This document shows, in pieces, positions 3,875 to 40,294 of a stretch of 64,000 nucleotides of DNA. The translations under genes were made by a program, and so were the position numbers. Under the pieces are notes generated by a model, which did no database searches, was not told where the DNA came from, and was given only the letters and a program-made list of their open reading frames with translations. Where the stretch lies: assembly GCF_023015885.1 (NCBI RefSeq), contig NZ_JALKBE010000003.1:186001-250000 (forward strand), written 5' to 3'. How positions within the stretch are numbered: position 1 is the stretch's first letter; each line of letters starts with the position of its first letter. The DNA is from Aliiroseovarius sp. S1123 (lineage in GTDB: Bacteria; Pseudomonadota; Alphaproteobacteria; Rhodobacterales; Rhodobacteraceae).

Positions 3875-4864
3875 ATGAAGACAGCCCTTTCATTTGTCGC
3901 AGGACTTGCTTTGACCACGACCGCAGCCTTTGCTGCGGATAAACCCGTGCTGCAAGTTTATGCTCCTGACTATTTCGCATCCGAGTGGGGCCCCGGCCCC
4001 TCGATCGAGGCGGGCTTTGAAGCCCAGTGCGCCTGCGATCTGGAATTCGTCACCGGCGACGTGATGCCCCGCCTGATGCTGGAAGGCGAGCGTACCGAAG
4101 CGGACGTTGTGATCGGCCTGAACACCGACGTGACCGCCCGCGCCCGCGCTTCTGGCCTGTTTGCCCCGCACGGTCTAGATGTCAGCGGCCTGACCCTGCC
4201 CGTCGACTGGACCGACGACACGTTCGTGCCGTTCGACTACAGCTACACCGCCTTCATCTATGACAACACCAAGATCGCGCACGCGCCCACCAGCTTTGAC
4301 GCGCTTCTGGCGATGCCCGACGACACCAAGATCGTCATTCAGGATCCGCGCAGCTCGATCTCGGGTCTGGCGCTGCTTCTGTGGGTAAAATCGGTTTACG
4401 GCGACAAGGCGGATGAGGCTTGGACCAAGCTGAACCCGAAGATCCTGACCGTCACCAAAGGCTGGTCCGAGGCTTACGGCATGTTCACCGATGGCGAAGC
4501 CGACATGGTACTGTCCTACGTCACCTCGCCCGCCTATCACATCATCGCCGAGGAAGACCTGACCAAATCGGCAGCCATCTTCGACGAAGGTCACTACCTG
4601 TTCGTCGACCTTGTGGGCAAAATCGCGAACACGGACCAACCCGAGCTGGCCGACGCCTTCATGGCCTATGTGCTGAGCGAAGAGTTCCAGTCAGGCATCT
4701 CCACCACCAACTGGTCGTTCCCGTCGAAACTGGCGACTGAGAAGCTGCCGGAAGGCTTCCAGAACTTGCCCGTGCCCGCAAAAGCACTCGTGTTCTCGGA
4801 AGAGGAAGCCGAGGCAATCCGCAAGCCGGCTCTGGACGAATGGCTCGCCGCCGCGTCCAAATAA
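3875..4864 (+). CDS. thiB: Thiamine ABC transporter, periplasmic substrate-binding protein
   Basis: A 329-residue solute-binding protein with a clear Sec signal peptide (MKTALSFVAGLALTTTAAFA, cleavage before ADKPV). The sequence then follows the ThiB/Fe(III)-binding fold: LQVYAPDYFASEWGPG, the GLNTDV hinge region, and FVPFDYSYTAFIYD. It captures thiamine (and possibly its phosphates) in the periplasm and delivers it to ThiPQ. The ATG at 3875 is chosen over an upstream in-frame start at 3659 because the longer frame runs through the riboswitch, while GGAGG sits five bases upstream of this ATG. The 3' end overlaps thiP by 25 bases. Confidence 0.96.
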   Translation: MKTALSFVAGLALTTTAAFAADKPVLQVYAPDYFASEWGPGPSIEAGFEAQCACDLEFVTGDVMPRLMLEGERTEADVVIGLNTDVTARARASGLFAPHGLDVSGLTLPVDWTDDTFVPFDYSYTAFIYDNTKIAHAPTSFDALLAMPDDTKIVIQDPRSSISGLALLLWVKSVYGDKADEAWTKLNPKILTVTKGWSEAYGMFTDGEADMVLSYVTSPAYHIIAEEDLTKSAAIFDEGHYLFVDLVGKIANTDQPELADAFMAYVLSEEFQSGISTTNWSFPSKLATEKLPEGFQNLPVPAKALVFSEEEAEAIRKPALDEWLAAASK

Positions 4865-6399
4865 GCACCACCACCATCCTTGGCGTTTTGGCGCTTGGGG
4901 TGGTGGTCTGCCTGACCCTTGGCACGCTGATCGCTGTTGCGATGCGGGCCGAGGGTGCGGGCAGGCTTGGCCCAGCCGATTGGGCCGCCATTCGGTTCAC
5001 GCTTTGGCAGGCAGCCGCGTCAGCCACCCTTAGCATCCTTCTGGCGATCCCTGTCGCCCGCGCGCTGGCGCGGCGCAGCTTCCCCGGTCGTTCTGTGCTG
5101 ATCACCCTTCTGGGTGCACCTTTCATCCTGCCAGTCATCGTCGCCATTCTGGGCCTGATCGCCGTCTTTGGCCGCACCGGGCTGATCTCGCAAGCACTGG
5201 GTCTGTTCGGGATCGAGCCGATATCCGTCTATGGCTATCACGGCGTCATCCTCGCCCATGTGTTCTTCAACCTGCCGCTGGCGACCCGCCTGATCCTACA
5301 AGGCTGGCTGGCCATCCCGTCCGAGCGCTTCCGCCTCGCTGCCTCCCTCGGCATGGGCCCCTCCGACATCGCCCGCACCCTGGAACGCCCTATGCTGCGC
5401 GAGGTCGTGCCGGGCGCGTTCTTGGTCATCTTCCTGATCTGCTTAACCTCATTCGCAGTCGCGCTGGCCCTTGGCGGCGGGCCGAAGGCGACCACCGTGG
5501 AGCTGGCAATCTACGAGGCCTTCCGTTTCGACTTCGACCTTGCCCGCGCGTCGCTGCTGGCGCTGGTCCAGTTCGCTTTGGGCGCGGCGCTGGCTCTGAT
5601 CGCCCTGCGCGTCGCGATGCCGTCGGACATGGGCGCGGGGCTGGATCGCGCCGTCACCCGCTGGGATGACCGCCCGGCCCTGTTGGTGCAGGACATCGCC
5701 GCGATAACTCTGGCCACGCTGTTCTTGCTCCTCCCGCTGGGAATGGTCATTCTGGACGGCCTGCCGCGGCTTCTGCACCTGCCTCAGGTGGTCTTTGGCG
5801 CAGCCCTACGCTCTGTCATCGTCGCACTCGTCTCGGCGGCCTTAACGCTGGCCCTGTCCCTGCCCATCGCCGCCCTCGCCGTGCGCCACAACTCGCGCGT
5901 GGTCGAGGCATTGGGCTACTTAACCATCGCCGCCTCGCCGCTTGTCATCGGCACGGGGCTGTTCATCATCACCTTCCCCTTCGTGAAGCCCTCCGACCTC
6001 GCCCTGCCCATCACCGCTATCGTCAACGCGGCCCTCAGCCTGCCGTTCACCCTGCGCGCTCTGGTGCCCGCCTTGGCGGCGGTCGAGCGTGACTATGGCC
6101 CGCTCGCAGACGGGCTGGGCATGACCGGCCTGACCCGTCTACGTCACCTGTGGCTGCCTCGCCTGCGCCGCCCGATGGGCTTCGCCTTGGGGCTGGCCGC
6201 CGCGCTGTCTATGGGCGACCTCGGCGTCATTGCGCTGTTTGCCGACGGCGACAATGCCACCCTGCCCTTGCAACTATTCCGCCTGATGGCCGCCTATCGG
6301 ATGGAGGACGCCGCCGCCGCAGCGCTGTTGCTCTTGTCCCTCTCGCTACTGCTATTCTGGATCTTCGATAAAGGAGGTCGCGTGAATGCTGACCGTTGA
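4840..6399 (+). CDS. thiP: Thiamine ABC transporter, permease
   Basis: A 519-residue inner-membrane permease with about twelve transmembrane segments arranged as two BPD_transp_1 halves, as in the ThiP family. Each half has a cytoplasmic EAA-type loop for docking to the ATPase: ERFRLAASLGMGPSDIART in the first, ERDYGPLADGLGMTGLTRL in the second. It forms the thiamine channel with ThiQ and receives substrate from ThiB. The start overlaps the thiB end by 25 bases and the stop overlaps the thiQ start by 14 bases, so the three genes are translationally coupled and share the TPP riboswitch. Confidence 0.95.
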   Translation: MARRRVQISTTTILGVLALGVVVCLTLGTLIAVAMRAEGAGRLGPADWAAIRFTLWQAAASATLSILLAIPVARALARRSFPGRSVLITLLGAPFILPVIVAILGLIAVFGRTGLISQALGLFGIEPISVYGYHGVILAHVFFNLPLATRLILQGWLAIPSERFRLAASLGMGPSDIARTLERPMLREVVPGAFLVIFLICLTSFAVALALGGGPKATTVELAIYEAFRFDFDLARASLLALVQFALGAALALIALRVAMPSDMGAGLDRAVTRWDDRPALLVQDIAAITLATLFLLLPLGMVILDGLPRLLHLPQVVFGAALRSVIVALVSAALTLALSLPIAALAVRHNSRVVEALGYLTIAASPLVIGTGLFIITFPFVKPSDLALPITAIVNAALSLPFTLRALVPALAAVERDYGPLADGLGMTGLTRLRHLWLPRLRRPMGFALGLAAALSMGDLGVIALFADGDNATLPLQLFRLMAAYRMEDAAAAALLLLSLSLLLFWIFDKGGRVNADR

Positions 6400-7078
6400 C
6401 CAACTGCGCATCAAGATGGGCGATTTCAGTCTGTTAGGGGACTTCACAATTACGCCCGGCGCACGCGTCGCGGTGCTTGGCCCGTCTGGCGCGGGGAAAT
6501 CCACGCTGCTGGCGGCCATTGCGGGGTTCCAACCTCTGGATGCGGGGGCAATCCTCTGGGACGCACAGCCCATGCCCAAAGACCCCGCCGCGCGCCCGAT
6601 CAGCATGGTTTTTCAGGACAACAACCTGTTCCCACACCTGACCGTCGCGCAGAACGTGGGCCTTGGCCTGCGCCCGAACCTGCGCCTTTCGGACGAGGAT
6701 CACACAAGCGTCGCCCAAGCCCTGACCCGCGTGGGGCTGGAGGGGATGGGCGATCGCAAACCCGCGCAGCTTTCCGGTGGCCAAATCGCCCGCGTCGCCC
6801 TTGCCCGCGTCCTTCTGCGCGACCGCCCGGTGCTGCTGTTGGACGAACCCTTCGGCGCGCTTGGCCCTGCGCTGAAAGCGGAAATGCTGGCGCTGGTCCG
6901 AGACCTGCTGAACGAGACCGGCGCAACCCTTCTGATGGTCAGCCACGACCCCGAAGACGCCCGCGTGCTCTGCGATCAGGTAGTGCTGGTGGCGGATGGA
7001 GTGGCCCATGCGCCGGTTGCGACGGAGGAGATGTTTGCCAACCCGCCAGAGGTGATGCGGGAGTATTTGGGGGGGTGA
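6386..7078 (+). CDS. thiQ: Thiamine ABC transporter, ATP-binding protein
   Basis: A 230-residue ABC ATPase energising thiamine uptake. It has Walker A GPSGAGKST near residue 32, the Q-loop (MVFQDNNLFPHLT), signature LSGGQIARVALAR near residue 129, Walker B VLLLDEPFGAL and the switch His in MVSHDPEDAR. Length matches ThiQ, which lacks an extra regulatory domain. A strong ribosome binding site (AAAGGAGG) lies before the ATG inside the end of thiP. A degenerate copy of its last roughly 45 codons occurs about 490 bases downstream (7566-7701). Confidence 0.96.
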   Translation: MLTVDQLRIKMGDFSLLGDFTITPGARVAVLGPSGAGKSTLLAAIAGFQPLDAGAILWDAQPMPKDPAARPISMVFQDNNLFPHLTVAQNVGLGLRPNLRLSDEDHTSVAQALTRVGLEGMGDRKPAQLSGGQIARVALARVLLRDRPVLLLDEPFGALGPALKAEMLALVRDLLNETGATLLMVSHDPEDARVLCDQVVLVADGVAHAPVATEEMFANPPEVMREYLGG

Positions 7079-30347: not shown

Positions 30348-30369
30348 GCTTCCCAAGGGGGAAGGTCAA
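30348..30369 (-). promoter_or_regulatory. CueR-type operator/promoter for copZ
   Basis: On the minus strand it reads TTGACCTTCCCCCTTGGGAA, followed by GC, very close to the CueR/HmrR consensus (TTGACCTTCC, spacer, GGAAGGT). The TTGACC is the -35 box of an overlong-spacer promoter. Confidence 0.75.
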
Positions 30370-30396
30370 TGCTCAAGAAAATGTGTGGTTTCGCCC

Positions 30397-30420
30397 TTGA
30401 CCCTCCCCTTACTGGAACCC
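30397..30420 (+). promoter_or_regulatory. CueR-type operator/promoter for copA
   Basis: It reads TTGACCCTCCCCTTACTGGA, followed by ACCC. The -35-like TTGACC and the spaced CC/GG palindrome match CueR boxes, though the right arm (GGAACCC) is imperfect. It lies about 40 bases upstream of the copA start. Confidence 0.65.
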
Positions 30421-30458
30421 CCATGTGTGACTCGAGAACCCGTTTAGTGGAGGGCACC

Positions 30459-32969
30459 ATGTCCGAGAAATCCCAAATCCGGCTGTCCGTGGACGGCATG
30501 TCTTGCGCATCTTGTGTCAGCCGCGTCGAAAAGGCTTTGACGGCCGTTCCGGGCGTCGATAGCGCAGCGGTCAATCTGGCCTCTGAAAGCGCTGACATCG
30601 TGTTTTCCGAACCCGCAACCCTAACGTCTTTGGCTGACGCGCTAGAGCAATCCGGGTATCCGGCCCAGATGGCCGAGGTCACGTTGCAAATCGAAGCAAT
30701 GACCTGTGCAAGCTGTGTCAGCCGTGTCGAGCGTGCCTTGACCGCAGTGCCCGGCGTTCTGAGCGCATCGGTCAATCTGGCCACCGAGACAGCGCAGGTA
30801 AGATACGCTGAAGGCGTTGTCACCCCAGCGGATTTGGCTCGTGCGGCCAGCAAATTGGGCTATCCAGCACAGGTCAAGCAAGGAAGCGATTCCGATCAGG
30901 CGAGCCGAAAACTGGCCGAGATCACCCGGCTGGGGCAGCTCACATTGGTGGCCGCCATTCTGGCCCTGCCCGTCTTTGTGATTGAAATGGGCAGTCATCT
31001 GTTTCCGGCCATGCATATGTGGATCGAACGTAGCATCGGCTTGCAGACAAGCCGCCTTCTGCAGTTTGTATTGACGACGATCGTGCTGTTCGGCCCCGGG
31101 TTGCACTTCTACACCAAGGGGTTTCCGCTGCTGTTTCGGGGCGCACCGGACATGAACTCTTTGGTCGCCTTGGGGACCTCGGCCGCCTACGGCTTTTCGG
31201 TCGTTGCAACCTTTGCGCCCGGCTTGCTGCCCGAGGGCACAGCAAATGTCTATTTCGAGGCAGCTGCAGTGATTGTCGTTTTGATCCTTCTGGGCCGTTG
31301 GTTTGAGGCGCGCGCCAAGGGCCGCACTGGCGAAGCGATCCGCAAATTGGTCGGGCTACAGGCCAAATCGGCCCGGGTCGAACGAGGTGACGACATCGTT
31401 GAAGTTCCGATTGATGACATTGCGGTGGGCGACGTGATCCATGTACGCCCCGGTGAAAAAATCGCCGTCGACGGAGAGGTCCTGTCTGGAAGCTCTTATG
31501 TTGACGAAAGCATGATTACCGGAGAGCCGGTGCCGGCTGAGAAAACCACGGGCGCCGAAGTGGTCGGGGCCACCGTGAACGGCACAGGCGCGCTGCGCTT
31601 CCGGGCGACCAAGGTGGGTGCCGACACGATGCTGGCCCAGATCATTCAGATGGTGGAACAGGCGCAGGGCGCGAAGCTGCCGATTCAGGGTCTGGTGGAT
31701 AGAATTACCGCTTGGTTCGTTCCTGCCGTTATGGGCGTGGCCGCCGTGACCATCGTGGCCTGGCTGATCTTCGGCCCCGATCCCGCGCTGAGCTTCGCTC
31801 TGGTCGCAGGGGTTGCGGTCCTGATCATTGCCTGCCCGTGCGCAATGGGTCTGGCGACCCCCACCTCGATCATGGTGGGCACCGGACGTGCCGCCGAGCT
31901 TGGGGTGTTGTTTCGCAAGGGTGACGCGTTGCAAATGCTGGGGGAAACACAGGTGGTTGCTCTGGACAAGACCGGCACGCTGACGGCCGGGCGGCCGGAA
32001 CTGACCGACCTGATTGTGGCAGATGGCTATGATCGTGATGAAGTCTTGCGGCTTGTTGCTGCCGTTGAAGCCGGATCCGAACACCCGATTGCCGAGGCCA
32101 TCCTGCGGGCGGCCGAAGGGCGGGATCTGTCCCTTCCAACCGTCGAGAAATTCGCGTCAATCACCGGATACGGAGTAACCGCGACTGTGGAAGGGCGGCA
32201 AATTCTGATCGGCGCGGACCGACTGATGGCCCGTGACGGTATCGCGTTGGGCAAACTCGGCGACACCGGAACCGAGCTGGGGCAGCAAGGACGCACCCCG
32301 CTTTACGCCGCCATCGACGGCAAGATTGCCGCTGCCATCGCCGTATCGGACCCGATCAAACCCACAACACCCGCAGCGATTAACGCTCTGCACGATTTGG
32401 GTTTGAAAGTCGCCATGATCACAGGCGACAATCAGGGCACAGCCAATGCCATCGCGCGCAGTTTGGGCATCGATCATGTCGTGGCCGAGGTGCTGCCCGA
32501 GGGCAAGGTTACGGCCCTTGGCAACCTGCGGGAACATGGCAAACTGGCCTTTGTCGGGGACGGGATCAACGATGCCCCCGCCTTGGCGTCGGCCGATGTG
32601 GGGATTGCCATTGGCACCGGCACCGATGTGGCCATCGAAGCTGCAGATGTGGTGCTGATGTCCGGCGATCTGACCGGCGTGGTCAACGCGTTCGACATTT
32701 CGGCCCGGACCATGCGCAACATTCGCCAGAACCTGTTCTGGGCTTTCGGCTACAATACACTCCTGATCCCGGTGGCGGCCGGGGTGCTATATCCTACGTT
32801 TGGCCTGCTTCTGTCACCGGTTCTGGCCGCCGGTGCAATGGCGCTGTCCAGCGTGTTCGTCCTGTCAAACGCCTTGCGACTGCGCTGGGTCCGGCCTGCG
32901 ATCGGCGCGGGAACATCGCCATCAGCGGCGCGCCCCGCAACTTTGAAACCTGCCACCGCCGCCAACTGA
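30459..32969 (+). CDS. copA: Copper-exporting P1B-type ATPase
   Basis: An 836-residue P-type ATPase exporting Cu(I) from the cytoplasm. Two N-terminal HMA domains (MSCASC near residue 15; MTCASC near residue 82) are followed by eight membrane helices with the transport motif CPC ([13 protein letters not shown]). Also present are the TGE actuator loop ([11 protein letters not shown]), the phosphorylated Asp in DKTGTLT, the HP motif (SEHPIAEAI) and the hinge [16 protein letters not shown]. The start is set by GGAGGG before ATG 30459; the longer frame from 30369 overlaps the promoter. copA is followed by cueR after 13 bases. Expression is probably activated by CueR through the box at 30397. Confidence 0.97.
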
Positions 32970-32982
32970 AGGGGAGGCTACC

Positions 32983-33384
32983 ATGAACCTGAATATCGGA
33001 GATGTGTCCAAACGCACCGGCCTTCGCGCAAAAACCATTCGTTACTACGAGGATATCGGTCTGGTTAAACCGCTTAGGGATACAAACGACTACCGTGTCT
33101 TTCGCGAAATCGACCTGCACAAGCTGACCTTTCTCAGCCGCGCGCGCGCCTTGGGCTTTACCATTGACGATTGCCGCAACCTTCTGGCCCTCTACGAGGA
33201 TGAAACGCGCGCCAGTGCAGATGTGAAAGAGATCACCAGCAAGCACTTGAAAGAGATCGAAGCGAAGATCAATGATCTTCAGGCCATGCACGCCACGCTA
33301 AGCCATCTGTCTAAAGAGTGTGCCGGCGACCACCGCCCGGATTGTCCCATTCTTGAAGGTCTCAGCGGTGATGACCGCCGCTAA
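32983..33384 (+). CDS. cueR: MerR-family copper-responsive regulator
   Basis: A 133-residue MerR-type activator. The N-terminal winged helix is MNLNIGDVSKRTGLRAKTIR, then YYEDIGLVKP. A long dimerisation helix follows, and the C-terminal metal loop is CAGDHRPDC, giving the C-x7-C spacing of Cu(I)/Ag(I)-sensing CueR/HmrR proteins. It should bind the two boxes between copZ and copA and start their transcription in excess copper. It sits 13 bases downstream of copA and 33 bases before a multicopper oxidase gene. Confidence 0.95.
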   Translation: MNLNIGDVSKRTGLRAKTIRYYEDIGLVKPLRDTNDYRVFREIDLHKLTFLSRARALGFTIDDCRNLLALYEDETRASADVKEITSKHLKEIEAKINDLQAMHATLSHLSKECAGDHRPDCPILEGLSGDDRR

Positions 33385-33417
33385 GCTTGCCCATCAGATC
33401 CATAAGGAAAGTCGAAC

Positions 33418-34875
33418 ATGATCTCTCGTCGAACTCTGCTGTCCGGTCTTGGCGCCGCTGCTTTGATACCGCAGCTTCCGGTCCGCGCTTGGGCCACCAC
33501 GCCTTCAAAGCCCCTGCAGATGCCGCCCTTGGTTGATGCCACTTCAAGCGGACAGTTCTCGCTGACCGCACAAGCAGGCGAGACGGATTTCCTGGGTCGT
33601 GCGTCAAGCCGAACCTGGGGGTTTGACCAGCCCTTCCTGGGGCCAACCGTCAGGTTGAACCATGCGGGCAACACTGCGGTCGCTGTTCACAACGCGTTGG
33701 ACCAGGCGATCTCGGTGCACTGGCATGGGCTTGTGGTGCCCGGCGATGTGGATGGTGGTCCGCATCAGCTGGTTGACCCCGGCCAAACCTGGTCCCCTGT
33801 CCTTCCCATCGACCAACCCCCTGCAACCGTCTGGTATCACAGCCATACGCACGGCAAGACCGCGCAACAGGTGCAAATGGGTCTGGCGGGTGTTCTTCAC
33901 CTGACGGACGGGCAGGACGATGCACGCGGTCTGCCAACCACCTATGGCACAGATGACCTGACCGTGGTCCTGCAGGATCGTCGCTTCGATCAGGATGGGC
34001 GCATGTCATATCGTGTGACCATGCATGACCAGATGATGGGGTTCCTTGGGGATACCATGGTGGTCAATGGGCAAGTGGGTGCCACCGCCATCGTCCCAAA
34101 GGGGGTGGTCCGCCTGCGCCTGCTGAATGGCTCGAATGCGCGGATCTATACTTTGGCGCTGTCTGATGGCCGCCCCATGCATTTGATCGGCACCGATACG
34201 GGCCTGCTGGACGCCCCCATCACGCTGGAAACCCTAAGCCTTGCGCCGGGCGAGCGGTATGAAGTTCTGGTGGATTTCGGCAACGGGAAGGACATTTCGC
34301 TTCTGAGCGGACAGAACGTCAACGAAGGGATGATGGGTGGCATGATGGGGCGGCGGCGCCCTTCTGGACCACCGTTCGAGGTGCTGCCCTTTGTCGTCGA
34401 TCCGGCGGCGCCAGTCCGGATAACCCGAGTGCCCGATGCGCTGGGTGGATCGCGTCCGAACATGGATGCGAGTTCAGCCGCCCGACGCCGGATCACGCTC
34501 GATATGGCCATGGGTCCCGGCATGATGATGCGTCGCGCCGAAGACCGGTTCTCGATCAACGGTCAAGCGTTCGACATGTCGAAGATCAACTTCAAAACAC
34601 AGGTGGGGCAGGTCGAAAAATGGCGGGTATCGGCCAACATGATGATGCACCCCTTCCATGTCCACGGTGTCATGTTCCAGGTGCTCAGCGAAAACGGACG
34701 CCCCCCACTTCCACAAAACCTGGGCTGGAAGGACACGATCCTGATTGATGGTGAGGCTGAGATCTTGATGCGGTTCGACCGTCCGGCGACAGAAGCACTC
34801 CCCTATATGTTCCACTGCCATATTTTGGAGCACGAGGATGGCGGCATGATGGGGCAGTTTACCGTGAGTGGTTAG
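33418..34875 (+). CDS. Multicopper oxidase, CueO/CopA-type
   Basis: A 485-residue Tat-exported (MISRRTLLSGLGAAALIPQL) multicopper oxidase. The copper motifs are HWHGLVVP, WYHSHTHG, HPFHVHGVMF and HCHILEHEDGGMM. A Met-rich stretch (NEGMMGGMMGRRR, later MAMGPGMMMRR) lies in the position of the CueO Met-rich region and suits Cu(I) binding. It is likely to oxidise Cu(I) to the less toxic Cu(II) in the periplasm. It is the last gene of the copA-cueR transcript and belongs to a different subgroup from the oxidase at 26438. Confidence 0.94.
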   Translation: MISRRTLLSGLGAAALIPQLPVRAWATTPSKPLQMPPLVDATSSGQFSLTAQAGETDFLGRASSRTWGFDQPFLGPTVRLNHAGNTAVAVHNALDQAISVHWHGLVVPGDVDGGPHQLVDPGQTWSPVLPIDQPPATVWYHSHTHGKTAQQVQMGLAGVLHLTDGQDDARGLPTTYGTDDLTVVLQDRRFDQDGRMSYRVTMHDQMMGFLGDTMVVNGQVGATAIVPKGVVRLRLLNGSNARIYTLALSDGRPMHLIGTDTGLLDAPITLETLSLAPGERYEVLVDFGNGKDISLLSGQNVNEGMMGGMMGRRRPSGPPFEVLPFVVDPAAPVRITRVPDALGGSRPNMDASSAARRRITLDMAMGPGMMMRRAEDRFSINGQAFDMSKINFKTQVGQVEKWRVSANMMMHPFHVHGVMFQVLSENGRPPLPQNLGWKDTILIDGEAEILMRFDRPATEALPYMFHCHILEHEDGGMMGQFTVSG

Positions 34876-35751: not shown

Positions 35752-35994
35752 CGCTCGCAACTTAGCCGTCGCAGGCACCGGTGACGAGCAATTCTGCCAT
35801 AAATGCGTCGCGGGCCGGTGTGGCGCAGCGCTGGTGCATTGGACAGGCAGAGCTGATCCCCCAGCACTCTGCACAGACCGCAACCTGACAAAACGCTGAC
35901 ACTCTCATTCAGACTTTTGACGCGGCCAAGGTGCTATCAGGGGTAGAGGCGCCCGAATCAATAGCGCCCGAATGGAAAACAAAGGACAGAGCAA

Positions 35995-36360
35995 ATGACC
36001 AAAGAAGACGACAAGGTATTTTCCCGGCGCAAGGCGCTGACCCGCATTGGTGGGCTGGCATTGGCCGCCTACTCCGTACCCGCGCTGACCACGCTGTCGG
36101 CTGCCCACGCATCTTCGGCGCCTTCGCCGGCCAGCGCTCCGTCGCCTGCAAGTGCACCGTCGCCTGCAAGCGCGCCGTCGCCGGCAAGCGCACCTTCCGA
36201 AGCCAGCGCACCTTCCGAAGCAAGCACGCCTTCCGAGGCCAGCGTACCTTCCGAGCCGAGCGGCCCGAGCGGCCCCCGCGTGGCAACGGCTGAAGAATGC
36301 ACCAGCGGCGGTGGAACGGTGGTTACGCGCGCAGATGGTGTTAAAGTCTGTGAAAGCTAA
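35995..36360 (+). CDS. Ser/Pro/Ala-repeat protein with twin-arginine leader
   Basis: A 121-residue protein, not recognised by name. Residues 8-39 form a twin-arginine-type leader (FSRRKALTRIGGLALAAYSV, then ALTTLSAAHAS). Residues 42-94 are a six-residue repeat: APSPAS four times, APSEAS twice, TPSEAS, VPSEPS, then GPSGP. A short C-terminal part (TAEECTSGGGTVV, ending VCES) has two Cys. The leader and repeat strongly resemble the protein at 37722, and an HprK-PqqD kinase gene lies between them. I infer it is an exported substrate or scaffold for that kinase. Many Ser in a fixed spacing would suit repeated phosphorylation. It is followed by a strong hairpin. Confidence 0.75.
   Translation: MTKEDDKVFSRRKALTRIGGLALAAYSVPALTTLSAAHASSAPSPASAPSPASAPSPASAPSPASAPSEASAPSEASTPSEASVPSEPSGPSGPRVATAEECTSGGGTVVTRADGVKVCES
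36118..36276 (+). repeat. 18-bp coding repeats (Ser/Pro/Ala hexapeptides)
   Basis: About nine imperfect 18-base units encode the APSPAS-type array in the gene at 35995. The codons drift from unit to unit, which suggests the array is selected at protein level and not a recent DNA slippage. Confidence 0.85.
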
Positions 36361-36390
36361 ATCGATCTGGGTTATCCCCACCTGATCGAC

Positions 36391-36421
36391 GGCCTGCCCG
36401 CACAGTAATTGTGGGCAGGCC
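36391..36421. other. Strong hairpin between the repeat-protein gene and the kinase gene
   Basis: Arms GGCCTGCCC (36391-36399) and GGGCAGGCC (36413-36421) pair perfectly, extended inward by CACA/TGTG with a small bulge. There is no T-run on either strand, so it is probably not a simple intrinsic terminator. It could stabilise the upstream mRNA and give the repeat protein higher expression than the kinase. Confidence 0.65.
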
Positions 36422-36483
36422 AGATTGCGTTGACGCGCAAGGGGGAAATCGCTGGTATGATCAGCGACAAATAGGAGCGGAGC

Positions 36484-37725
36484 GTGGTGGAACCGCAGTA
36501 TGTGCAATTTGAGGGTCTGAAGCATCCCGTCGCGTTGGAAAACGCAGACGAGATTGCAGCGATGCTGCCCACAGTCCTTTCTGCCTGGCCGCACCACACC
36601 CTGAACACTCCACCAAGTGATCCGCCGTTCGTCACCATCCGTCCCGCTGGGCCAGACCGCTGGGACGTGATCCGTGCGGACCAGCCCGAAACGCCCCGTA
36701 CCTGGGATGGGGTCAACACAGTCTGCGACATCGTCGCCGAGATGGCGTGGGAGCGGCTGCGCTCGGACCCTGATTTGCTGTGCCTGCATGCTGCGGCTAT
36801 TGATTTTAACGGGCGTCTTGTGGTGATGCCTAACGCCAGACGCGCCGGCAAGAGCACCTTGGCTATTGCCTTGGCGCGTCTGGGTAGACCCCTGTATTCA
36901 GATGATTTTCTGCCCGTGCGCGTGGATGCGACCACGCGAAGCTGCGCGGGCATCGCGAACGGAATTCAGCCGCGCCTGCGTTTGCCTCTACCTGAAGGCT
37001 TCAGCGACAGCTTTCACGATGATGTTGCGCAGGATCCCGGCCCGTCGAACCGCCAATACAAATATCTTACCAAAGCACCCGTCGCCCCATGGGGCGAAAG
37101 CCTTCCCTTGGGCGCGATGGTGATGCTCGAGCGTCGCGACGCGCCGCAGCCGCCGCAGCTTAGCCCGATGGCACGCGAAGACGCGCTGGCCAGCCTGATC
37201 ACCCAGAACTTCGCACGCACGCGTCACGCGGGGGCGATCCTGCGCTCGGTCGACCTTTTGACGCGCCACTTGCCAATCTATCGGCTGAGCTATCATTGCG
37301 CCGAAGAGGCCGCCGAATACCTGTCGACCCACCCGGATCTGGCAGCTCTGCCTGCCGCCCAGCTGCCCGAGCTTGCACAAGATGACCGTCAGGCGCCCTT
37401 AGACCAACTTAACCGCCCTGCCCCCGACTTCACCAAAAATCAGTGCTATGTACAGGCTGCAGGCGTGGCCGAAAGCGTGGTGGGCGACGAGGCGTTTCTG
37501 GCTGATGGATCGGGGCTTGGCATTTTCCGCTTGAACCCGGTATCGGCCGCGATCTGGGCCTTACTGGAAGAGCCGACAGACCTGGCCGAGGTCGTCGAGA
37601 TCCTGTCCGAGGCGTTTCCAGATGTCCCCGTTGACCAAATCACGACAGACAGCGAAAACCTGATGCGCAGCTTGGCCCGCGCGCGTCTGATCACCCCTGC
37701 CTCTCACAGCATGGCAGCGCAATGA
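36484..37725 (+). CDS. HprK-like serine kinase fused to a PqqD-like (peptide-binding) domain
   Basis: A 413-residue fusion. Residues about 1-270 resemble HPr kinase: LCLHAAAI with His102, a modified P-loop PNARRAGKST (Gly122-Lys123-Ser124), RPLYSDDFLPV with paired Asp, and a later Arg-rich segment. The first Gly of the normal P-loop is replaced by Pro-Asn. Residues about 315-405 form a PqqD/RRE-like winged helix (YVQAAGVAESVVGDEAFLA; RLNPVSAAIWALLEE; LMRSLARARLI). HprK proteins phosphorylate a Ser; RRE domains bind leader peptides. Start is GTG 36484 with GGAGCGGAG upstream. It overlaps the next gene by four bases. Related separate-gene systems are known as HPr-rel-A; no nucleotidyltransferase is seen here. 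Confidence 0.85.
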   Translation: MVEPQYVQFEGLKHPVALENADEIAAMLPTVLSAWPHHTLNTPPSDPPFVTIRPAGPDRWDVIRADQPETPRTWDGVNTVCDIVAEMAWERLRSDPDLLCLHAAAIDFNGRLVVMPNARRAGKSTLAIALARLGRPLYSDDFLPVRVDATTRSCAGIANGIQPRLRLPLPEGFSDSFHDDVAQDPGPSNRQYKYLTKAPVAPWGESLPLGAMVMLERRDAPQPPQLSPMAREDALASLITQNFARTRHAGAILRSVDLLTRHLPIYRLSYHCAEEAAEYLSTHPDLAALPAAQLPELAQDDRQAPLDQLNRPAPDFTKNQCYVQAAGVAESVVGDEAFLADGSGLGIFRLNPVSAAIWALLEEPTDLAEVVEILSEAFPDVPVDQITTDSENLMRSLARARLITPASHSMAAQ

Positions 37726-38279
37726 GCGGCAGCAAGCGCATATCACGCCGCGCCGCGTTGCTTCGGTTGGGACTGGGGGCCGCCAGTGCCTATATGGCGC
37801 CCAGCATGGCTGGACTAAGCCTAGCCCGCGCTTCCTCTAGCGCGCCTTCCCCGGCCTCGTCGCCCAGCCCCGCCTCTTCTCCGTCCCCGGTCAGCCCGGC
37901 GTCACCGCCCTCTCCGGCCAGCACGCCAAGCATACCCAGCGGGCCAAGCATTCCAAGCGGGCCGAGCATTCCAAGCATTCCAAGCGGACCCAGCGGACCC
38001 GGAACCTGCCGAAGTTCTTCCATCGGCGGCAGCGCCCAGATCTCGCGTCAGGACTATCAACGCGCCCAACGCGCGATTGCGCGTGGGGATGCACGACCGC
38101 TACAAGAGGTCTTGAAGAACGTGCAGTCCAAGCAGCCCGGCAAGTTGCTCCAAGTCGGGTTTTCTGACACAGGAAAGCGAACGAAGTTTAGAGTGCTGAT
38201 CGTTGATCGGTCCGGCGCGGTCGTCTCGGTCTCGGTTGATGCGGGCTCGGGGCGGATCACAAGCATACGGAAGTGCTGA
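37722..38279 (+). CDS. Ser/Pro-repeat protein with twin-arginine leader and PepSY-like C-terminus
   Basis: A 185-residue protein. The leader (ISRRAALLRLGLGAASAYMA, then LSLARASS) matches that of the protein at 35995. Residues 41-93 form a repeat rich in Ser, Pro, Ala, Ile and Gly (SPSPASSPSP; then IPSGPSIPSGPS). Residues about 110-185 form a PepSY-like domain (DARPLQEVLKNVQSK; LQVGFSDTGKRTKFRVLIVD; VVSVSVDAGSGRITSI). PepSY domains modulate proteases or sensor kinases outside the cell. It overlaps the kinase by four bases, and the response regulator begins on the next base after its stop codon, so kinase, repeat protein and two-component system are one unit. Confidence 0.78.
   Translation: MSGSKRISRRAALLRLGLGAASAYMAPSMAGLSLARASSSAPSPASSPSPASSPSPVSPASPPSPASTPSIPSGPSIPSGPSIPSIPSGPSGPGTCRSSSIGGSAQISRQDYQRAQRAIARGDARPLQEVLKNVQSKQPGKLLQVGFSDTGKRTKFRVLIVDRSGAVVSVSVDAGSGRITSIRKC
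37842..38000 (+). repeat. Coding repeat array (Ser/Pro-rich)
   Basis: Units encoding SPSPAS and then GPSIPS-type hexapeptides in the gene at 37722. It is less regular than the array at 36118-36276 but shares the same six-residue period. Confidence 0.8.
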
Positions 38280-38945
38280 ATGCGTATCCTCATCGTAGAA
38301 GATGAACAGAAGATCGCCGAGCTGATCGCGGATGTTCTGGAAGGCGAGAGCCTGATCCCCGAGATCGCCAACGACGGAGAGCAAGGCTGGTTTCTGGGCA
38401 GCACCGAAAGCTATGCGGCTGCCATCCTTGATATCGGCCTGCCCAAACGTGACGGCCTATCGGTCCTGCGCGCATGGCGAGACGAGGGGCTGGACCTGCC
38501 CGTCATTTTGCTGACCGCCCGCGCAAACTGGAACGAGCGGGTCGAAGGGATCGACGCAGGCGCCGACGACTATCTGGGGAAACCCTTCCAGATGGAAGAG
38601 CTGGTCGCGCGTCTGCGTGCCCTGCTGCGCCGGTCCGGCGGTCAGAAAGCGACGATCCTTGAAGCCGGGGCGCTTCGGGTCGATTTGCGGCAAATGCGTG
38701 TCTCGGTCGACGGGCGTCCGTTGAAGGTCACACCCTTGGAATATCGGTTGCTGAACTATCTTCTGCATCATCGCGGCGAGGTGGTGACACAGGAAGAACT
38801 GGTCGAGAACATCTATTACCGGGATCAGGAACCTGACAGCAACGCAGTCGAGGTTCTGGTCGGCCGCCTGCGCCGCAAAATCGGCGGCGGTGTAATCGAA
38901 ACACGGCGCGGATTTGGGTACATGATCGCCGGGGAAGACGCATGA
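38280..38945 (+). CDS. OmpR/PhoB-family response regulator
   Basis: A 221-residue regulator. The receiver domain has the acidic pair (LIVEDEQ), the phosphorylated Asp in ILDIGLPKRDG near residue 50 and the Lys in YLGKPFQMEEL. The C-terminal winged helix (VTPLEYRLLNYLLHHRGEVV; then AVEVLVGRLRRKIG) binds DNA. Start directly follows the stop codon of the PepSY-like repeat protein (TGAATG). It is paired with the kinase at 38942. The overall arrangement resembles PhoP/PhoQ-type systems, in which small PepSY proteins can modulate the sensor. Confidence 0.94.
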   Translation: MRILIVEDEQKIAELIADVLEGESLIPEIANDGEQGWFLGSTESYAAAILDIGLPKRDGLSVLRAWRDEGLDLPVILLTARANWNERVEGIDAGADDYLGKPFQMEELVARLRALLRRSGGQKATILEAGALRVDLRQMRVSVDGRPLKVTPLEYRLLNYLLHHRGEVVTQEELVENIYYRDQEPDSNAVEVLVGRLRRKIGGGVIETRRGFGYMIAGEDA

Positions 38946-40294
38946 AGCTTTCCCTAAGCCTTCGCTTGTTGCTGGCAGCGGCCATGACAACGGCGATTGC
39001 CTTGGTGGCGACGGCCATCGTCTTTAACTTCCTGTTCCGGCTCTATTTCGAAGACCGCGCGCGGAGCGAACTTGAGACCTATCTGATCCAGCTTAGCGGC
39101 AATGTCTCGGCCAATACCGCGGGCGAGGTCGAGATCATTCCGATCCCCGATCCGCGGTTTAATCAGGCCTTGTCCGGTTACTACTGGCAGGTGCAGATCG
39201 ACCGGGACGAGCCGCTTCTGTCGCCGTCCTTCTGGGCCGCACCGCTGGAACTGGCGCGCCCGCAGACCGCAGGGTTGATCACCTATACCGATGTAACCAC
39301 CGGATCCGGCGATGCCGTCGCCGTCGCCAGCTGGATCATCACGATGGGCGAAGACGACACACGGAAAGAGGTCTTTTTGGCGGTCGCCATCGACCGTGCA
39401 GACTTGGATATGTCGGTCGCGCGGTTCACAACGAACTCGGTCTTCTGGCTGGGCGTCTTGGGCTTGTTCCTGATGAGCGCAAGCTGGTTTCAGGTGCGCC
39501 TTGGACTTAAGCCGCTACAGAAAATCCGCTCCGAGATCTCGCGTGTGTCCCACACCCCGAACGGGCGGCTGTCGTCGGAATATCCGTCCGAAGTTCTGCC
39601 GCTGGTCGAAGAGGTAAACCAGCTTCTGAACGTCAATGCCGAAGCGTTAGAGCGCGCCCGCTCGCGGGCGGGCGATCTGGCCCACGGGCTGAAGACTCCC
39701 CTGACGATCATGCACGGGATCGAGCGCAAGGTGCGGCGAACCGGAAACGATTCCTTGGCCGACGATCTGATGACGGAAATCACCAGCATTCAACACATCG
39801 TCGAACGAGAGCTTGCCTCGACGCGTGACAGTCATCAAGCGCTGCTGAAATGCGACGCGGGTCCGATCATTGACCGCCTGCACAAGGCACTTGGCCGCCA
39901 ACCCGGCGCCGAACATATAAAGTGGGACATCGACGTACCCAGCCCGCTGTTCCTGCCTTTCGACGAATATGATCTGACCGAGCTTTTGGGCAACCTTCTG
40001 GACAACGCGGTAAAATGGTCGGACAGCCGGATTTCCGTGCGTGGCGAACAGGATCAGACACAGGTGGCCCTCTGCGTCGAAGATGACGGCCCCGGCATCC
40101 CGCAGGAAGAATGGGATGCGGTGCTTGCGCGCGGAACACGGCTTGACCCGGACCAGCCGGGCACAGGCTTGGGGCTGAGCATCGCACAGCGTATGGCGCA
40201 GGCGCATGGATGCACCCTGTCGCTGGATTACTCTGATCTGGGCGGCGTGAAAGTGTGTTTGGTACTTCAGCCCGCGATCAACGACGCACCGTAA
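38942..40294 (+). CDS. Sensor histidine kinase
   Basis: A 450-residue membrane sensor. Two hydrophobic segments (residues about 7-27 and 165-183) frame a periplasmic domain of about 135 residues. A HAMP-like linker follows, then an H-box reading GDLAHGLKTPLTIMHG near residue 248, an N-box (LTELLGNLLDNAVKW), and a G-box (DDGPGIP; GTGLGLSIA). The H-box form HGLKTPL is the one seen in PhoQ-type kinases. It overlaps the regulator gene by four bases and runs convergently into the M20 peptidase gene, with a 17-base overlap. Confidence 0.93.
   Translation: MKLSLSLRLLLAAAMTTAIALVATAIVFNFLFRLYFEDRARSELETYLIQLSGNVSANTAGEVEIIPIPDPRFNQALSGYYWQVQIDRDEPLLSPSFWAAPLELARPQTAGLITYTDVTTGSGDAVAVASWIITMGEDDTRKEVFLAVAIDRADLDMSVARFTTNSVFWLGVLGLFLMSASWFQVRLGLKPLQKIRSEISRVSHTPNGRLSSEYPSEVLPLVEEVNQLLNVNAEALERARSRAGDLAHGLKTPLTIMHGIERKVRRTGNDSLADDLMTEITSIQHIVERELASTRDSHQALLKCDAGPIIDRLHKALGRQPGAEHIKWDIDVPSPLFLPFDEYDLTELLGNLLDNAVKWSDSRISVRGEQDQTQVALCVEDDGPGIPQEEWDAVLARGTRLDPDQPGTGLGLSIAQRMAQAHGCTLSLDYSDLGGVKVCLVLQPAINDAP

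Follow-up and report, generated by a model that had tools for sequence, protein, structure and literature searches.

A kinase-RRE fusion beside signal-tagged serine-repeat proteins in Aliiroseovarius sp. S1123, a candidate for phosphorylation before export

Introduction

RiPP recognition elements (RREs; RiPP, ribosomally synthesized and post-translationally modified peptide) are known from natural-product pathways. Can such an element also guide the modification of secreted proteins? This question is raised by a locus of Aliiroseovarius sp. S1123, found in a stretch of 64,000 nucleotides that is referred to here as the window (contig NZ_JALKBE010000003.1, positions 186,001 to 250,000). At its centre, a protein of 413 residues with a GTG start (36484..37725), in which an HprK-type domain is joined to a PqqD/RRE domain, is encoded between SRR1, a small putative exported protein of 121 residues (35995..36360), and SRR2, of 185 residues (37722..38279). 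All window features are on the forward strand. An initial annotation, made from the sequence alone, had claimed these three open reading frames (ORFs), with small repeat proteins on both sides and a 4-base overlap between the fusion and SRR2, and this layout was confirmed.

At this locus, proteins that carry the signal tag are probably (poly)phosphorylated under the guidance of an RRE before they are exported. The recruitment of the leader by the RRE of the fusion is a well-supported prediction from co-occurrence, a shared motif and the likeness of the RRE; the phosphorylation and its target residues are what we infer. In the proposed mechanism, the C-terminal RRE would bind a Tyr-x-x-Pro-x-Leu motif within the hydrophobic stretch of a signal peptide of the twin-arginine type, and the HprK/PEPCK-fold domain would transfer at least one phosphate from ATP to Ser or Thr of the mature part while this is still in the cytosol. 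In the lineage of the window, the target would most likely be Ser repeats with a period of three. The signal would then direct export, probably by twin-arginine translocation (Tat), and cleavage at an AxA site by a signal peptidase would set free a polyanionic Ser-repeat protein. A Tat-type route is consistent with this scheme, because Tat accepts proteins that have already been processed in the cytosol.

Co-occurrence of the leader and the fusion

A GTDB-wide scan of contigs with kinase motifs characteristic of the home group resulted in 59 loci. In 58 of these, the fusion is preceded at 290-573 nucleotides, on its own strand, by a gene for a leader-bearing, Ser-rich protein, and the 59th (L177) is cut by a contig end. 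Further loci from the family of the window (the home family), outside the window itself, have the leader at the same spacing in 22/22 cases. Among nine weaker home-family kinase matches, several of which lie in lasso-like clusters by reading, no leader with the RR-x13-YxxP spacing was found (0/9).

For searches of whole genomes, a leader profile was built from 29 leaders. In 295 home-family genomes it gave 24 matches at E < 1e-6, with the next at 4e-4. The fusion is present at E < 1e-20 in 23 genomes, all of which are among these 24 (in G123 it is in two pieces), and the remaining one, G196, has the leader and the start of a fusion that is cut at a contig end. The association is strong even with G196 counted as a miss (Fisher p 2e-33). 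At the level of the class (337 genomes), 31 have the kinase or PqqD (E < 1e-20), 29 the leader (E < 1e-5) and 28 both (Fisher p 2e-36); both p values ignore relatedness. The initial annotation had named a wide occurrence of the fusion without a nearby repeat protein as the outcome that would speak against it, and a search of the home family did not reveal it. Beyond this family, 12 of the 28 class genomes with both have the leader gene on a different contig from the kinase or separated from it by 25 kb or more, so that linkage alone is insufficient to account for the association.

In 349 genomes of the phylum, eight leader matches were obtained at E <= 1e-4, three of them already known and five new. 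Four of the new ones have a full-length fusion directly downstream (E 1e-88 to 1e-94), three of them in another class, and the tails at these new loci are of the SRP/YSRP or SGG type. The fifth, G679, was rejected as a false leader match on a long enzyme ORF. Within the genus of the window, G833 has no leader match at E <= 1e-4, indicating that the presence of the leader is patchy. In the genome of the window itself, the fusion is present as a single copy (E <= 0.001).

L055 has a Ser-repeat protein (6248-6643) next to a weak kinase match without PqqD. The signal of this protein contains RR and lacks YxxP, and the protein may be a relative that uses another recruiter.

The RRE-binding motif in the export signal

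SRR1 and SRR2 match the leader profile at E 8.2e-17 (own genome) and 1.2e-12, respectively. The candidate RRE-binding motif is Y26-S-V-P29 in the SRR1 leader (YxxPxL, 36070..36081) and Y24-M-A-P27 in the SRR2 leader (37791..37802). In all 86 leaders compared (59 upstream and 27 downstream of a fusion), the Tyr stands exactly 15 residues past the first Arg (RR-x13-Y-x2-P). This fixed place was not built into the search, because the search expression required YxxP but allowed the Tyr at 12-21; every locus having upstream sequence passed. The residue two after the Pro is L in 27, F in 25, M in 18, V in 11 and I in 5 of the 86. YxxPx[L/V/I/F/A] has been described as the RRE-binding motif of the leaders of lasso peptides and linear polyphosphorylated peptides (LPPs) (Popov et al. 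2026, PMC13381572, available in part); the 18 leaders with M lie outside this published set. Own-genome Tat signals do not have the RR-x13-YxxP spacing (0/18 matches to TIGR01409 at E <= 1, at least one of which, L221, looks spurious), and one has YxxP elsewhere. The RRE motif thus appears to be built into the export signal itself, and the fixed spacing is, at the level of sequence, a new observation.

Both small proteins have the features of a Tat signal: an SRRxxL-type motif, a hydrophobic stretch and an AxA site. The RR pair, A37 and A39 are invariant in 38/38 SRR1 proteins, and TatC is encoded in the own genome.

Domains and fold of the fusion

Pfam assigns residues 345-403 of the fusion to PqqD (E 2.4e-12), and PqqD proper (TIGR03859) is matched with 19.8 bits at a cut-off of 46; the kinase half has weak sequence matches to named families. 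In 6/6 plasmid records the fusion is annotated as 'PqqD family protein', and its small partner in Shinella as 'hypothetical protein'. Separate but adjacent genes for kinase and PqqD are frequent beyond the home family.

An alignment of 47 fusion sequences (the window and 46 of the 59 GTDB loci) was used for AlphaFold2 and for residue counts. The resulting model has a pLDDT (predicted local distance difference test) of 92.5 and a pTM (predicted template modelling score) of 0.88, and its top Foldseek matches are PEPCK (2e-5), HprK (4e-5) and leader-bound TbiB1 (1.5e-4). With TbiB1 (5v1v), Foldseek gives a target-normalised TM (template modelling) score of 0.86 and a root-mean-square deviation of 2.2. 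A profile of 22 relatives matched the solved RREs TbiB1 (3e-7), LppB (1.3e-5), TfuB1 (8.7e-5) and PbaB1 (3.4e-4), with 0.022 for the PqqD structure and 1.1e-4 for HprK over the P-loop (3tqf). The window sequence alone matched TbiB1 at E 0.059 and one unrelated structure, and nothing else. As modelled, the fusion is a PEPCK/HprK fold joined to an RRE.

The RRE domain spans approximately residues 320-407 (37441..37704), as placed by profile alignment to LppB (9x8z). In LppB, the leader is held by Asn33 and Asp70, which secure the kink at its Pro and keep its Tyr in place (PMC13381572). In the profile alignment, N351 and D389 of the fusion align with these residues, and D389 is kept in 43/47 sequences. 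The near-perfect co-occurrence, the YxxP motif in every leader and an RRE that is closest to the lasso B1 and LppB structures lend good support to the earlier claim that the PqqD/RRE domain recruits the leader.

The candidate catalytic residues are His102 (36787..36789), Lys123 in the P-loop PNARRAGKST (36829..36858) and the pair Asp140-Asp141 (36901..36906). Each of the four is present in 47/47 sequences, and G122-K123-S124 is invariant. They were matched by order and motif to the His-Lys-Asp-Asp set of lasso-tailoring kinases, which is essential there, as determined by mutation (PMC9266682, available in part). Because the set is kept throughout, phosphorylation before export is plausible. 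HprK-like kinases add up to four phosphates to lasso precursors (PMC9266682), and LppK, an HprK-like kinase with an RRE and a YxxP leader, places several phosphates on a core Ser (PMC13381572).

Serine repeats as the putative target

SRR1 consists of the leader (RR, YxxP, AxA site), a region with Ser at each third position (APSPAS, APSEAS and PSGPSG repeats, 36112..36272) and a short tail with two Cys. In 59 upstream tails (58 GTDB loci and the window), Ser pairs at lag 3 number 775 versus 409 +/- 13 in shuffles (z 28.5), and those at lag 6 number 685 versus 388. The number of Ser per tail ranges from 6 to 42 with a median of 20; the lowest, L131, is partly masked. The matching leaders and Ser repeats that the initial annotation described in both small proteins are therefore present, with the repeats above chance, and its term 'twin-arginine' applies by motif only.

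A simpler reading is that only one or two Ser/Thr beside the signal-peptidase site are phosphorylated, as by LppK and PadeK, and that the repeats are a flexible spacer or a surface polymer. In other alphaproteobacterial lineages, what comes after the identical leader type is a short core, in which [FILV]P[ST]xC is conserved, and a Pro/Gly/Arg tail, without Ser repeats; in addition, a Ser directly follows the SRR leaders (A-x-A-S-S), and the known relatives modify a single Ser, albeit with several phosphates (PMC13381572, PMC9266682). What speaks against such single-site modification is that the spacing of three is kept while the intervening residues change (SAA, SPA, SEP, SGG). Ser at each third position with variable neighbours suggests that the Ser themselves matter, and modification of only one or two sites is considered unlikely, though worth serious attention. 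The earlier claim that the Ser repeats are phosphorylated before export thus gains plausibility from the catalytic set and loses generality, since the repeats are not universal across lineages.

The short cores were observed at L237, L241, L244-L246, L250-L253 and L255-L257, and in several genomes their distance to the kinase gene is 25-41 kb. Many SRR1 C-termini (36280-36360 in the window, and relatives) have two Cys approximately 10-20 residues apart (C..GGG...VC). At L046, two leader proteins with long RPS/RPN repeats (2455-2976 and 4757-5377) are encoded upstream of one fusion. No named family was found for the window SRR1 at E <= 0.01. Among its relatives, weak matches to formate_TAT in 8/38 and to three collagen-like adhesin models in about one protein each were taken as compositional.

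Other functions of the fusion

The PEPCK/HprK fold could also serve another chemistry on Ser, such as the addition of a phosphate chain or a non-phosphate group, perhaps as the first step towards glycosylation, for which the enzyme would be encoded elsewhere. For lasso precursors, kinases that add as many as four phosphates are described, along with a partner nucleotidyltransferase that puts a hexose on the phosphoserine (PMC9266682), and Foldseek places PEPCK slightly above HprK for the fusion model. Against such a chemistry, reading of the ORFs at 32-42 kb of the window, with Pfam on seven of them, revealed no evident nucleotidyltransferase or glycosyltransferase, and this option is regarded as rather improbable.

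Another possibility is that the fusion is an export chaperone, in which the RRE masks the signal and ATP binding or hydrolysis drives release, without lasting modification. It would then resemble the proofreading chaperones of Tat enzymes. RRE binding should compete with export, because the RRE motif lies inside the hydrophobic part of the signal, and this counts in favour of a chaperone, as does the fact that the repeat proteins need no cofactor. However, the full kinase catalytic set is invariant, and we know of no energy-driven chaperone of the PEPCK/HprK fold. The relatives are proven kinases (PMC9266682), and a chaperone function is very unlikely.

Points against RRE-guided phosphorylation

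Several observations weigh against RRE-guided phosphorylation before export. The association has exceptions in the class: 3/31 genomes (G397, G478 and G603, the last a PqqD-only match) have the kinase without the leader, and G407 has the leader without a strong kinase. A single bacterial family accounts for most loci, and the locus counts therefore do not represent independent events. The Ser repeats vary strongly; some home-family tails are Arg-Pro-Thr-rich or Gly-rich, and beyond the home family some cores are short and contain only one Ser/Thr. The contacts of the RRE with the leader are partly conserved: position 351 is Asn in 32/47 and Asp in 14/47 sequences, and the LppB pocket divider F74 has not been retained, its position being Leu in 22/47. 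GKST was correctly reported in the initial annotation, but the full P-loop of the home group (PNxRRAGKST) lacks the first Gly of the canonical Walker A motif, which distant members have. Finally, the leaders of SRR1 and SRR2 are absent from the 18 own-genome matches to TIGR01409 at E <= 1. This general Tat model misses them, and the assignment to Tat therefore rests on the motif, that is, SRRxxL, the hydrophobic stretch and AxA.

Comparison with known systems

The system is not HPr-rel-A, lasso or LPP, and works like the lasso and LPP pathways. The LPP pathway of Bacillota (LppA/K/B/S/N/D) shares with it an HprK-like kinase and an RRE encoded together, a conserved precursor N-terminus with YxxPx[V/L] before a highly variable C-terminus, the lack of a cyclase, one to three precursors per locus and the alignable RRE contact residues Asn and Asp (PMC13381572). 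It differs in that here the kinase and RRE are one fused protein, the leader is a twin-arginine-type signal peptide and the substrates include PepSY-like and S8-peptidase proteins. The present loci are found in Pseudomonadota, whereas LPPs are called restricted to Bacillota in the available part of PMC13381572. The LPP consensus given there (YxxPxVLxHQxIxFETxxS) is not matched by the leaders, which read YxxPxxTxLSxAxAS-like. An SpI-like peptidase, an NTP transferase and an MsbA-like exporter were not seen around the window cluster by reading and by Pfam on seven proteins, without a dedicated search.

Phosphorylated lasso peptides of the paeninodin type also have a His-Lys-Asp-Asp HprK-like kinase acting on a precursor Ser (PadeK, ThcoK, SyanK, PsmK; PMC9266682), together with a B1-type RRE and a Y/WxxP leader. 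In contrast, no B2 protease and no C cyclase (macrolactam synthetase) were seen among the neighbours in the window, so that a lasso cluster was rejected, and the product here would be an exported protein rather than a small threaded peptide.

The initial annotation had compared the fusion with HPr-rel-A (TIGR04352, TIGR04353), which also has an HprK-related kinase and a PqqD-like protein and shows weak sequence similarity. This comparison failed: the fusion scores 40 bits against HprK_rel_A at a cut-off of 200, and the Tat-YxxP leader is found in none of the eight class genomes with HprK_rel_A over the cut-off (0/8). An ordinary HPr-rel-A, lasso-peptide or PqqD-type locus, as the weak NCBIfam matches to HprK_rel_A (47/47 at E <= 0.001) and lasso PqqD (15/47) might suggest, is hardly credible in view of these two results, the fact that neither a lasso cyclase nor a leader protease gene was seen next to the fusion, and the weaker home-family kinases without the leader (0/9).

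CotH belongs to a different kinase family from the HprK-like kinases. The likeness is that CotH is dedicated to the phosphorylation of repeat proteins rich in serine, CotB and CotG, which are part of an outer layer, the Bacillus spore coat (PMC7821199, available in part). It differs in gene context and in acting in the spore coat rather than on proteins exported by a signal peptide, and RRE or leader recognition is not mentioned in the available part of that paper.

In the open-access papers searched, an HprK-type kinase and a PqqD/RRE domain with twin-arginine or serine-rich partners were not found, and the combination of an HprK-like kinase with an RRE was found only in the LPP paper (PMC13381572). 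The available main text of PMC12710340 has no occurrence of kinase, HprK, twin-arginine or Rhodobacter, and one YxxP passage.

Associated modules and neighbouring genes

SRR2 combines an SRR1-type leader and Ser/Pro repeats with a PepSY-like C-terminal domain (38034..38276), which is modelled with pLDDT > 90 over most of residues 111-185. In Pfam, the window protein reaches E 0.032, below the cut-off, and 9/23 relatives match at E <= 0.01; the top Foldseek matches, 4exr and 2gu3, are weak (E 5e-3 and 6e-3). SRR2 is followed by genes for an OmpR-type response regulator (38280..38945) and a sensor histidine kinase (38942..40294), both assigned by Pfam. The initial annotation had suggested that this two-component system may regulate or read out the modification. 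The PepSY protein and the two-component genes are found in exactly the same 26 of the 59 loci, and the two-component system is therefore an optional module tied to SRR2 and was rejected as a core partner. In L142, L169 and L178 a second leader begins and the sequence is cut short. As a speculation, the two-component system encoded with SRR2 may sense SRR2 or ions held by it. By reading, the kinase/PqqD loci L103 and L106 lie beside a sensor kinase and regulator, and L106 also beside polysaccharide-type genes, reminiscent of LPP loci in capsule loci.

The RR-x13-YxxP leader, plus a short Ser/Gly/Arg stretch, also fronts S8-family peptidases in four loci (L045:5151-6491, L229:4851-6293, L277:1235-2572 and L278:1213-2478). 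At L277 and L278 the peptidase gene has an annotated sigma factor gene as its neighbour, and the peptidase gene of L229 is on a different contig from the fusion (L047). A phosphorylated, cation-binding Ser-repeat layer that is read by PepSY/two-component or sigma modules may be imagined, although this is speculative. The broader idea is a secretion-wide route in which an RRE motif in the export signal would let RiPP-type machinery phosphorylate whole exported proteins in the cytosol (Ser-repeat polymers, PepSY-like sensors and S8 peptidases, even when distantly encoded). Two alternative surface-signalling modules, the two-component system with PepSY and an ECF-type (extracytoplasmic function) sigma factor with the S8 peptidase, would then monitor the phosphorylated layer. 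This idea is put forward tentatively, as a possibility that may well prove wrong.

The five same-strand genes at 35995-40294 (SRR1, the fusion, SRR2, the regulator and the histidine kinase) are tightly arranged after the fusion: SRR2 and the regulator are adjacent, and the regulator and histidine kinase genes overlap by 4 bases. Between SRR1 and the fusion lies a spacer of 123 bases, in which a hairpin with a one-base bulge was read from the sequence (36391..36421, GGCCTGCCCGCACA / TGTGGGCAGGCC). In mononucleotide shuffles, this intergenic region has a folding z of -3.1 in the window, and z is < -2 in 31 of 42 loci (the window and 41 of the 59 GTDB loci). The hairpin possibly lowers downstream expression relative to SRR1. 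No known RNA element was found at the gathering threshold in window positions 35900-38400. A neighbouring cluster at 30369-34875 is an ordinary copper island: by reading, it encodes a copper-type P-ATPase, a MerR-type regulator and a multicopper oxidase with a Tat signal, the oxidase being assigned by Pfam.

Significance

The partners at these loci look like ordinary secreted proteins and include repeat polymers, a protein with a sensor-like domain and a protease. If RRE-guided phosphorylation before export is true, RRE-guided modification would reach from small peptides to secreted proteins, and a widespread orphan kinase family that is annotated only as 'PqqD family protein' would gain a substrate class. 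It would also make extracellular phosphoproteins of bacteria accessible to direct tests that need two genes in E. coli.

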